A stretch of 64,000 nt of DNA, taken from NCBI RefSeq assembly GCF_017874535.1, contig NZ_JAGGLS010000004.1, positions 62,001 to 126,000 of the forward strand, read 5' to 3'. Each line of letters opens with the position of its first letter. Within the stretch, counting starts at the first letter, position 1. Under the pieces are notes generated by a model. That model worked only from the letters and a program-made list of their open reading frames with translations. It had not been told where the DNA came from and searched no databases. Of this stretch, positions 47,537 to 51,083 are shown in pieces. Position numbers and translations under genes: made by a program. Source of the DNA: Anaerococcus nagyae. GTDB lineage: Bacteria > Bacillota > Clostridia > Tissierellales > Peptoniphilaceae.

Positions 47537-49906
47537 TTAATTAATACTTATTGGATTTATAGCTGGTATAAAGCTCGTGTCCTTATATTTACTTATATAC
47601 AAATTTTTAAGTTTATTAATTATATATACAACCTGGCTTAAGTCTTTATCTTTAGCTTTAACAATAATATTATACCTATGTTTATTATTAATTCTTGATA
47701 TTTTGCAAGGATTTGGGCCGATAATCTCAACTTCTAAATATTCTCCTAGATGATTTTTTAAATCAATAGCAAATCTTCTTGAAATATCTATTGTTTGAGT
47801 TCTAGATTCATTTATAATTTTAATCGTTAATAAGTTTTTAAATGGAGGATAGGAAAAGGCCTGTCTTTCCATGAGCTCATTTTTATAAAAACTATCGTAA
47901 TCATTATTCTTAACTGCCTGTATAACAAAATTATCTGGCCTATAACTTTGAATTATTACTTTTCCTTTTTTCTTATCTCTTCCACTTCTACCTGCAACCT
48001 GAGTCAATAATTCAAATGTATTCTCTTGAGATCTAAAATCTCCAACATTTAAACTTAAATCTGCTGAGATTATTCCAACCAAAGTAACATTTTTAAAATC
48101 AAGTCCTTTAGCTATCATTTGAGTTCCTAATAAGATATCGATCTTTTTTTCTTTCATACCTTTATACATATATTCATAAGCAGCTTTATTATTTGATGTC
48201 ATGCTATCCATTCTAAGAATATTTGCCTTAGGAAATAAATTTCTCACTTCTTCTTCAAGCTTCTCCGTACCTGCTCCAAATTCTTTTATTTTTTTAGAAT
48301 GACAATTAGGACAAACTCTAGGTTGTTTTATTGTTCTACCACAATAATGACAAACTAATCTATCTACATTCTTATGATAAGTCATGGCTACATCACAAGC
48401 TTCACATTTTATGACATAACCACAGGTCCTACAGAAGGTGTAGGAATCATGACCTATTTTGTTTAAAAATAAAATGATTTGTTCTTTTTTTTTCAAATTA
48501 TTATCTATTTCTTCATATAATCTACGACTAATAATTGAATAGTTAGAGTTTTTGAGCTCCTCTTTTAGATCTACTATTTCTATATCTGGCATAGAATTAT
48601 TTATTCTATTTTTTAGATGGATTAGTTGATACTCACCTTCTTCTGCTTTTTTCATAGTATTTATAGAAGGGGTAGCAGAAGCTAATATAAGATTGCATTT
48701 ATTATAGTCAGCTCTAAATCTTGCAATTTCATCTGTATGATATTTGGGATCTTTTGAAGAAATATAAGAAACATCATGCTCCTCATCAATTATTATTATT
48801 CCAAGATTTTTAAAAGGGGCAAATATAGCAGATCTCGCACCTATAACTATTTTAACTTCCCCATTATTTATCATCCTCCATTGATCAAACCTTTCTGAAG
48901 CTGTCAATCCAGAATGAATTATAGCAATTCTTTCATTAAATCTACCCTTAAATCTTTCAATGGTTTGCGGTGTAAGTGAAATTTCTGGAACTAAAATAAT
49001 TGCCTCTTGTCCTCTTTTTATAACTTCTTCCACCATTTGTAGAAATATTTCCGTTTTACCTGATCCGGTTACTCCAAATAATAAGAATTGTCCTTTAGGA
49101 TTAGCTTTTATAATATTAAAAGCATTGTCTTGATCATTATTTAAGGAAAATTTTTGGTAAGGATTGTATGAGATATCTAATTCTTTGTTTCTTTCTTGCT
49201 TAGATACTTTTATAAATCCCTTATTTATAAGTGACTTAAAACTTGATCTAGGTGCATTTGTTTTACTAAGTAATTCACTTACTTTTATTTTTCCATTAGC
49301 TTTTAAATAATCTATTATTTCAGCCTGTTTTTTTGCATTTTTAGTTAAGTTAATACTTATATCGTCTACTAATTCCACATATTCGTCATATTTTACAGTT
49401 TGAGTATCTTTAGTATCGTAATACACACCTATTTCATTTTTTTTAACAAGATTTAAAACTTTATCTTTTATGTCCCCAAATTTATTTATTATGTCAGACA
49501 TCTGACGCTTTTTATTTAGATAATTAGAGAGATCTCCATCTATCATTTTTTTATTATAGTAATATATTTTAACATTTTTAATATCTGTTGGAGGCATAAC
49601 TTGTTTTATCGAAGCTTGTATTGGAGACATATAATTTTTGCTCATAAAAAAAGCTAATTTCATAAGTTCATCTGAAATTAGTCTATTATCATCAATAATA
49701 TCTAAAATATCTTTTATCTCATAACTTGCATCGATATTTTCTATTATTTCATAAACAAAAGCAACGCTAGTCTTATTTCCTTTGCCAAAAGGAACTAAGA
49801 CTCTCATTGCTATATCTATTTTCTTATTGAATTTTTCTGGTATATGATAAGTAAAACTACGATTTAAAAATCTACTTTTACTATCAATTATTACTTTTGC
49901 GTAAAT
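47537..49906 (-). CDS. priA: Primosomal replication restart helicase PriA, probable AUU start
   Basis: Helicase that reloads the replisome at stalled forks. It has GVTGSGKTEIFLQM (Walker A), DEEHD, and four CxxC pairs for two zinc ions (CRTC, CEAC, CHYC, CPNC). The first ATG (49807) starts at MRVLVPFGKG, but upstream in the same open frame the family N-terminus is encoded: YAKVIIDSKSRFLNRSFTYH then IPEKF. Between the in-frame stop and that ATG there is no ATG, GTG or TTG. The ATT at 49904-49906 is placed well after AGGTGAT, giving MYAKVIID and 789 residues. The start is inferred; the gene call is secure. Confidence 0.93.
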   Translation of the reverse strand: MYAKVIIDSKSRFLNRSFTYHIPEKFNKKIDIAMRVLVPFGKGNKTSVAFVYEIIENIDASYEIKDILDIIDDNRLISDELMKLAFFMSKNYMSPIQASIKQVMPPTDIKNVKIYYYNKKMIDGDLSNYLNKKRQMSDIINKFGDIKDKVLNLVKKNEIGVYYDTKDTQTVKYDEYVELVDDISINLTKNAKKQAEIIDYLKANGKIKVSELLSKTNAPRSSFKSLINKGFIKVSKQERNKELDISYNPYQKFSLNNDQDNAFNIIKANPKGQFLLFGVTGSGKTEIFLQMVEEVIKRGQEAIILVPEISLTPQTIERFKGRFNERIAIIHSGLTASERFDQWRMINNGEVKIVIGARSAIFAPFKNLGIIIIDEEHDVSYISSKDPKYHTDEIARFRADYNKCNLILASATPSINTMKKAEEGEYQLIHLKNRINNSMPDIEIVDLKEELKNSNYSIISRRLYEEIDNNLKKKEQIILFLNKIGHDSYTFCRTCGYVIKCEACDVAMTYHKNVDRLVCHYCGRTIKQPRVCPNCHSKKIKEFGAGTEKLEEEVRNLFPKANILRMDSMTSNNKAAYEYMYKGMKEKKIDILLGTQMIAKGLDFKNVTLVGIISADLSLNVGDFRSQENTFELLTQVAGRSGRDKKKGKVIIQSYRPDNFVIQAVKNNDYDSFYKNELMERQAFSYPPFKNLLTIKIINESRTQTIDISRRFAIDLKNHLGEYLEVEIIGPNPCKISRINNKHRYNIIVKAKDKDLSQVVYIINKLKNLYISKYKDTSFIPAINPISIN

Positions 49907-49909
49907 AAT

Positions 49910-49916
49910 ATCACCT
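49910..49916 (-). promoter_or_regulatory. Ribosome binding site that supports the AUU start of priA
   Basis: AGGTGAT on the minus strand, overlapping the coaBC stop codon. Its GG lies seven bases before the ATT at 49904-49906, the normal spacing. It matches seven bases of the anti-Shine-Dalgarno complement. Confidence 0.65.
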
Positions 49917-51083
49917 AATTAAGTTTAGTATTTCGTTAGCTAATTCTTTTTTACTCATTATCTCTAGATCTTTTACACCATCTTTTGATATAAAACTTGC
50001 TACATTAGTATCTGTATTAAATCCTGCACCTTCTTTTTTTAGATCATTAGCTACAATATAATCAGCATTTTTAACATTTAATTTTTTATTTGCATTTTCT
50101 ATCAAATCATCTGTTTCAGCAGCAAATCCAATAATAGTCTGATCTTTTTTCTTACTACCAAAATATTTTAGTATGTCTAAATTTTCTATAAATTCAAAAT
50201 TTATAGATTCTCCAGATTTTTTTATCTTTCTATCACTTACCGTGCTAGGTCTATAATCAACAGGAGCCGCAGCCATAATAAGAGCACTTGCATCATCGAA
50301 GTTTTCTTCAATAGCATTTTTCATCTCTTCATTTGTTTTAACTTCTATTTTATTAATACCATTAATTTCAAAAGGATTAACAGGACCTGATACTAAAGTA
50401 ACATCTGCTCCTCTTTTTTTTGCCTCATTAGCAATATTATACCCCATTTTACCACTAGAGTGATTTGTTATGTATCTTACATAATCAATTGGTTCAATAG
50501 TAGGACCAGCTGATACTATTATTTTTTTACCAACAAGATCTTTATCAGTAAAATAATCTTCCAAATATTTAACTATATTTTTCGGCTCTTCCATACGACC
50601 ATCACCAACAGTATTACAAGCTAGGACACCAGATTCTGGAGCTATAACTTTTACCCCATATTCTCTTAAAGTCTGAAGATTTCTTTGAGTTGCTGGATTT
50701 AAAAGCATCTGTGTGTTCATAGAAGGAGCTATAATAACATCTTTTTGACAGGCTAAATATGAAGCAATTAAAAAGTTATCTGCTATACCATTTGCCATTT
50801 TACCAATAGTACTAGCTGATGTAGGTGCAATAAGCATAAGGTCTGCCCACTTTGGTAATTCTATGTGGTGAACTTCTTCATGATGGCCTTCCCACATATC
50901 TGAATAAACTAAACCCTTAGCCATTGTTTCAAAAGTTACAGGTCTTACAAACTCTTTAGCAGATTCTGTCATTATGACTTTAATATTTACATTCTTTTTA
51001 ACTAATCTAGAACAAAGTTCCAGTGTTTTGTAACAAGCAATGCCACCAGAAACACCTAATAAAATATTTTTATTATCAATCAT
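49911..51083 (-). CDS. coaBC: Bifunctional phosphopantothenoylcysteine decarboxylase/synthetase
   Basis: Two consecutive steps of coenzyme A synthesis: the C-terminal CoaB half joins cysteine to phosphopantothenate, the N-terminal CoaC half decarboxylates it with FMN. The 390-residue protein begins NILLGVSGGIACYKTLEL (flavoprotein), has APSMNTQM (decarboxylase motif) and the CoaB domain from about residue 185 (VSAGPTIEPIDYVRYITN). Its ATG overlaps the rpoZ stop by four bases. Confidence 0.96.
   Translation of the reverse strand: MIDNKNILLGVSGGIACYKTLELCSRLVKKNVNIKVIMTESAKEFVRPVTFETMAKGLVYSDMWEGHHEEVHHIELPKWADLMLIAPTSASTIGKMANGIADNFLIASYLACQKDVIIAPSMNTQMLLNPATQRNLQTLREYGVKVIAPESGVLACNTVGDGRMEEPKNIVKYLEDYFTDKDLVGKKIIVSAGPTIEPIDYVRYITNHSSGKMGYNIANEAKKRGADVTLVSGPVNPFEINGINKIEVKTNEEMKNAIEENFDDASALIMAAAPVDYRPSTVSDRKIKKSGESINFEFIENLDILKYFGSKKKDQTIIGFAAETDDLIENANKKLNVKNADYIVANDLKKEGAGFNTDTNVASFISKDGVKDLEIMSKKELANEILNLIR

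Follow-up and report, generated by a model that had tools for sequence, protein, structure and literature searches.

The locus examined here raises the question of where translation of priA begins. The window (the whole stretch of 64,000 nucleotides that was analyzed) belongs to a 1.75-Mb draft genome of Anaerococcus (G000), and its priA frame, read on the minus strand, is open from an in-frame TAA (49919..49921) through the first in-frame ATG (49805..49807; codon 34 of priA). The codons at the start region read TTA GGT GAT ATT ATT TAC GCA AAA, and neither ATG, GTG, TTG nor CTG occurs in this frame between the upstream stop and codon 34. The earlier note had described a frame open back to a stop near 49918, with 33 codons before ATG 49807 that lack ATG, GTG and TTG, and had proposed that priA is translated from AUU; the open frame and the start-free codons were recovered, and the exact position of the stop differed only trivially. 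These 33 codons encode the beginning of the PriA 3'-DNA-binding domain, in agreement with the match to the PriA N terminus noticed before: the Pfam domain PriA_3primeBD was matched with an E value of 3.3e-21 (profile 1-96/96; residues 5-106 when numbered from 49909), and from residue 3 onward the protein also matched NCBIfam NF004066 above its cut-off. The protein has the 3'-DNA-binding domain, DEAD/helicase core, Zn ribbon and C-terminal domain of PriA helicases (PF17764, PF00270, PF00271, PF18319 and PF18074, besides NF004066). Read from AUU, priA (47537..49906, minus strand) would encode 789 amino acids, presumably with fMet at the AUU; it has full-length Pfam and NCBIfam matches and 30 orthologues in the genus. 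Among 64 open reading frames of at least 80 amino acids picked in the window, priA alone combined a long start-free extension (37 codons) with gene-like codon usage (0.31 vs 0.34 bits per codon) and the lack of a Shine-Dalgarno (SD) sequence at the first ATG.

Comparison across the genus fixed the start place. A priA gene was identified in 30 of the 31 Anaerococcus genomes, all but G021, which is 82% complete. The codon aligned to 49904-49906 (minus strand) was ATT in nine of these genomes, TTG in 21, and ATG or GTG in none, and the SD core GGTGA was kept in position before it in all 30. Two ATT codons are adjacent here, and the second is the start. The first (49907..49909, minus strand) was rejected as a start, being AGT in G011 and G022 and variable elsewhere; among the 30 genomes, the codon preceding the start was free to vary (ATT, AGT, AAT, GAT, GTT, TTT, ATA, AAA or AAC). 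Outside the genus, 98 genomes of the family had a priA match and starts were read in 62, of which 61 had ATG, GTG or TTG (mostly ATG) no more than three codons from the aligned start, a place that was extrapolated where the match begins some codons in. In the nearest genus (g17), both genomes had TTG. The one exception, the incomplete genome G063 (C65:1237-1467), had GTT at the start place after AGGAG, and a pair of GTG codons lay six to seven codons ahead of it.

The nine ATT genomes, which include A. octavius NCTC9810, sp. Marseille-Q5996, sp. mt242, sp. 9403502 and A. provencensis, formed one clade in trees of PriA (residues 41 onward; SH-aLRT 97) and CoaBC (SH-aLRT 99), both built by a quick method from 30 rows, with the first 40 residues of PriA removed and G002 and G029 left out. 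One change of state suffices. Within the clade, priA DNA identity was 69-95% (median 72%), and all nine genomes lacked ATG, GTG and TTG before codon 34. First, codons 2-33 were under strong protein constraint (pS 0.42, pN 0.06, pN/pS 0.15), compared with pN/pS values of 0.29 for codons 34-65, 0.43 for codons 66-250 and 0.20 for codons 251-789; a silent leader would be expected to lose its protein. Second, 50 columns of the alignment were Ile in every one of the nine; ATT was used throughout in the start column alone, and ATA throughout in one other. An ordinary Ile codon within a gene would seldom show such a pattern. On this comparison we regard the start position, the lack of a usual start codon, the protein constraint before the first ATG, the single origin and the persistence of the ATT as established, and we have little doubt that priA of this clade starts at the AUU at 49904-49906, as first suggested.

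The upstream gene, coaBC (49911..51083, minus strand; Pfam Flavoprotein and DFP), ends in a TGA (49911..49913, minus strand) that lies inside the SD sequence AGGTGAT (49910..49916, minus strand), 4 nt before the AUU. The spacing of seven bases from the GG to the ATT, also pointed out previously, was seen again, and AGGTGAT is a strong, 7-nt match to the usual anti-SD. The anti-SD was assumed, because a search of the draft genome G000 for the 16S tail pattern gave no match, perhaps because the rRNA is incompletely assembled. With this assumed anti-SD, the computed pairing at priA was -9.3 kcal/mol versus a median of -7.2 for 542 ATG open reading frames; this median is probably too weak, since each start in the control was taken as the first usual codon. 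The distance from the coaBC stop to the priA start was 4 nt in 21 of 28 aligned genus genomes, including all nine with ATT, and coaBC ended 8-14 nt ahead of the start, in other frames, in six; in the sister genus (two genomes) it ended directly at the priA start. In G028, the coaBC frame was broken. Across the genus and sister genus, the SD sequence and the start place were independent of these changes in the coaBC frame. Such proximity of stop and start, with the SD sequence in the end of the upstream gene, is that of a coupled pair, and we consider it reasonably probable, as the earlier note had proposed, that priA translation is coupled to coaBC. No common hairpin was visible by eye at the priA start when the 30 sequences were folded singly.

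Several other explanations were weighed. The one that survives best accepts the AUU start and denies it regulatory meaning: UUG, itself a weak start in the ancestor, would have drifted to another weak codon, tolerated through the strong SD sequence and the translation of the overlapping coaBC. The chance of this seems to fall slightly short of even. Against it, ATG is only one base away and was never regained in nine species as divergent as these, and other genes of the genus also have lasting AUU, AUA or AUC starts (see below). Much less tenable is translation from ATG 49807, which would make PriA 33 residues shorter in the clade. No usual start codon precedes this ATG, which is conserved in all nine genomes; however, no SD sequence stands ahead of it, the strongly constrained codons 2-33 would be left outside the protein, and the 3'-DNA-binding domain, over which the Pfam match extends, would lose about 30 residues, as the earlier note had anticipated. 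In addition, the aligned position was ATG in 15 and another codon in four of 19 TTG species. We thus find a start at this ATG very improbable; its conservation would allow a second, shorter PriA product as a possibility, yet such a product is unneeded. A frameshift from coaBC into priA, giving a fusion protein, is more improbable still: coaBC does end 4 nt before the priA start in a different frame, but the frame relation of the two genes varies while the SD sequence and start stay unmoved, an in-frame stop three to four codons upstream of the start leaves few codons for the shift, and sister species hold TTG at the exact start place. Finally, draft genomes do carry single-base errors, but the same ATT in nine separate genomes makes it practically inconceivable that a sequencing or assembly error masks ATG, GTG or TTG.

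We therefore favor, with high confidence, an explanation in which priA is initiated at AUU by an ordinary initiator tRNA with the help of a strong SD sequence, after a single replacement of UUG, and probably with low synthesis of PriA. The SD sequence would keep the 30S subunit at the AUU, ribosomes that end coaBC at the stop within it would probably help to load the start, and together they would bring the start codon into the P site. There, the ordinary initiator tRNA would decode the AUU at 49904-49906; its first two base pairs should hold and the third fail, with IF3 hastening rejection, so that the yield is low. A low yield of PriA from this codon appears likely. UUG was replaced by AUU once, at the base of the nine-species clade, and the AUU was then kept; a point against the explanation is that a change from TTG to ATT takes two base substitutions. 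Since IF3 rejects AUU, PriA synthesis may rise when IF3 is scarce, but a response to IF3 that matters to the cell seems doubtful, the ATA at the infC start place in the genus (see below) being circumstantial evidence for it. In E. coli, elevated IF3 is reported to inhibit non-canonical starts and re-initiation (PMC2268962). E. coli IF2 is reported to influence PriA-dependent restart (PMC3334882), which gives no more than a hint that initiation factors and replication restart can be linked.

The initiation machinery was analyzed in the same genomes. An initiator anticodon-loop pattern had matches in 28 of 31 genus genomes, carrying CAT in 27 of these 28; the loop in G000 was ordinary (GGGCTCATAACCC; two matches, both CAT). 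A changed initiator tRNA was rejected on this pattern. The sole match in the incomplete genome G021 (C12:56433-56445) was GGGCTAATAACCC, with AAT, in a putative tRNA, and G008 and G010 each had one extra match with TAT, also in putative tRNAs. In an alignment of IF3, the infC proteins of the nine and the 21 remaining ones had no residue in common at two columns. The infC gene itself (G000:C5:15345-15842) had ATA at its start place, and ATA after GGAGG was found in all 30 genus loci read, 10 of which had no usual in-frame start before the upstream stop. Because of this uniform ATA, near-cognate starts seem functional in the genus. Outside it, the infC start place was ATT, ATA or ATC in all 26 loci read (28 genomes searched, 27 matched). 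According to the accessible text of two studies, infC starts at ATT in B. subtilis (PMC6097659) and at AUA in S. aureus (PMC13009471), and near-cognate initiation of infC likewise looks normal in this family.

To place priA among other genes, we surveyed 860,573 bases (49%) of the G000 genome, comprising 841 open reading frames, for a coding N terminus with an SD sequence and an AUH codon (AUU, AUA or AUC) and no usual start in G000. Besides priA, four such genes, which the earlier note had not noticed, were found: infC, smc, cvfB and a gene for an SH3 lipoprotein. Of the 31 genus genomes with an smc match, 30 loci were read, and the start (G000:C2:34028) was ATT in 29 and ATA in one. The protein matched the SMC_prok_B model from residue 2. 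Its Walker A motif lies at residue 31, ahead of the earliest usual start codon in G000 (ATG 61), so that initiation at a usual codon would cost SMC this motif. In six of the 30 loci, GTG GTG lay in frame inside the SD sequence and could compete, and smc of G020 had ATG at codon 8. Among outgroups, both g17 genomes had ATA and the other 24 of 26 loci read (28 genomes searched) had usual starts. Stops or short frames inside priA (G029 and G002) and smc (G002, G003, G028 and G029) reflect either genuine gene decay or sequencing indels.

The cvfB start (G000:C4:46235) was ATT in 18, ATA in seven and ATC in four of 30 genus loci, with one misaligned (G029), and its product had CvfB winged helix and S1 domains above the Pfam cut-off. 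A usual codon lay in frame upstream in G001, G003, G010, G013 and G020, that of G003 being a TTG one codon before the start place, and all 24 outgroup loci read (27 matches) had a usual start available. The SH3 lipoprotein gene (G000:C1:214694-215008) had AUH in all 25 loci read (ATA 16, ATT 5, ATC 2 and two ATA off-alignment by two codons), the last of its 26 matched genomes matching in the SH3 part only. Its SD sequence in G000 (ggggtgat) overlaps the end of the upstream reading frame. In several orthologues a usual codon (TTG, ATG or GTG) follows within nine codons or a GTG precedes by four, and the N terminus was weakly constrained (pN/pS 0.54); for these two reasons, it is the weakest case. 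SH3_3 was just under the Pfam cut-off in this protein, and an NCBIfam search with the cvfB and SH3 lipoprotein queries returned no family. In a PDB sequence search, the match of the N-terminal domain was only weak in the one alignment listed. ATG was present at the start place in none of the genus loci read for smc, cvfB and infC, though only one base away. With the assumed anti-SD, pairing was -11.2 kcal/mol for smc, -11.5 for the lipoprotein, -10.7 for infC and -6.8 for cvfB (ATG median -7.2). A rule described in the consulted part of an S. aureus study, a weak start with an extended SD sequence (PMC13009471), was fitted by four of the five Anaerococcus genes, cvfB being the exception. Other candidates of the survey were rejected: a truA-like gene had ATG GTG just upstream, C6:40886 had an ordinary ATG with an SD sequence, and the frame of a capA-like gene breaks at C2:106856 (both names presumably apply, from the appearance of the proteins). 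The frame shift near C2:106856 in G000 may mark a broken gene, and C4:23948 was dropped after reading.

It is conceivable, if rather unlikely, that these genes form an IF3-gated set in Anaerococcus, made up of infC (AUA), smc (AUU), cvfB (AUU/AUA/AUC), the SH3 lipoprotein gene (AUA/AUU/AUC) and, within a single clade, priA (AUU). Through the weak codon that they share, chromosome maintenance (SMC and PriA) and control at the RNA level (CvfB) would depend on the amount of IF3, and hence on the condition of the translation apparatus. If so, weak AUH starts would be a lasting means of regulating chromosome genes across a whole genus, and natural targets would become available for testing what purpose, beyond infC, discrimination by IF3 serves, a question of long standing. 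A practical consequence concerns annotation: a gene finder limited to ATG, GTG and TTG must leave the first 33 residues off PriA here and would truncate the SMC of G000 past its Walker A motif. The AUU of priA appears to be a weak signal held over long evolutionary time in one Anaerococcus clade. As comparative genomics the finding seems solid, albeit modest in kind, and the set would weigh more than priA alone.

A literature search that covered few subscription papers and no preprints or supplements found no AUU start named for priA, smc or cvfB, no paper joining priA with a non-canonical AUU start codon, and none on an AUU start codon in Anaerococcus. AUH starts, including small sets in Firmicutes, are already known, and priA is a further member of that class; as members, priA, smc, cvfB and the SH3 lipoprotein were not met in the literature searched. 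The infC gene of E. coli starts at AUU. Like infC, priA combines a fixed near-cognate start with a strong SD sequence, the infC start being discriminated by IF3. However, the product of infC controls its own synthesis, and the gene has ATA, ATT or ATC in all family loci read, whereas priA is a DNA helicase gene with AUU in one clade only. In E. coli pcnB, an AUU start reportedly limits the yield of a nucleic-acid enzyme; pcnB and Anaerococcus priA have the AUU in common, but their sequences are unrelated and the bacteria different. In S. aureus, cvfC1 (AUU) and ccpN (AUA) begin at non-canonical codons that are conserved and have an extended SD sequence close to the start, and AUU and AUA give about 10% of the AUG yield in poor medium, as far as the accessible text reports (PMC13009471). 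These are other genes, demonstrated there by ribosome profiling and reporters, whereas the priA start is known from comparison, and priA did not appear in the accessible main text of that paper. For Listeria monocytogenes, the available text describes six fixed non-canonical starts, including infC (ATT) and rnhC (ATC), and a start strength of AUG > AUA > AUU (PMC13068326); priA and smc were absent from its main text as accessible, the six being listed in a supplementary table. By analogy, the start behavior of S. aureus, Listeria and E. coli may extend to Anaerococcus, whose genome, like that of Listeria (PMC13068326), appears to contain a few non-canonical starts that are fixed.
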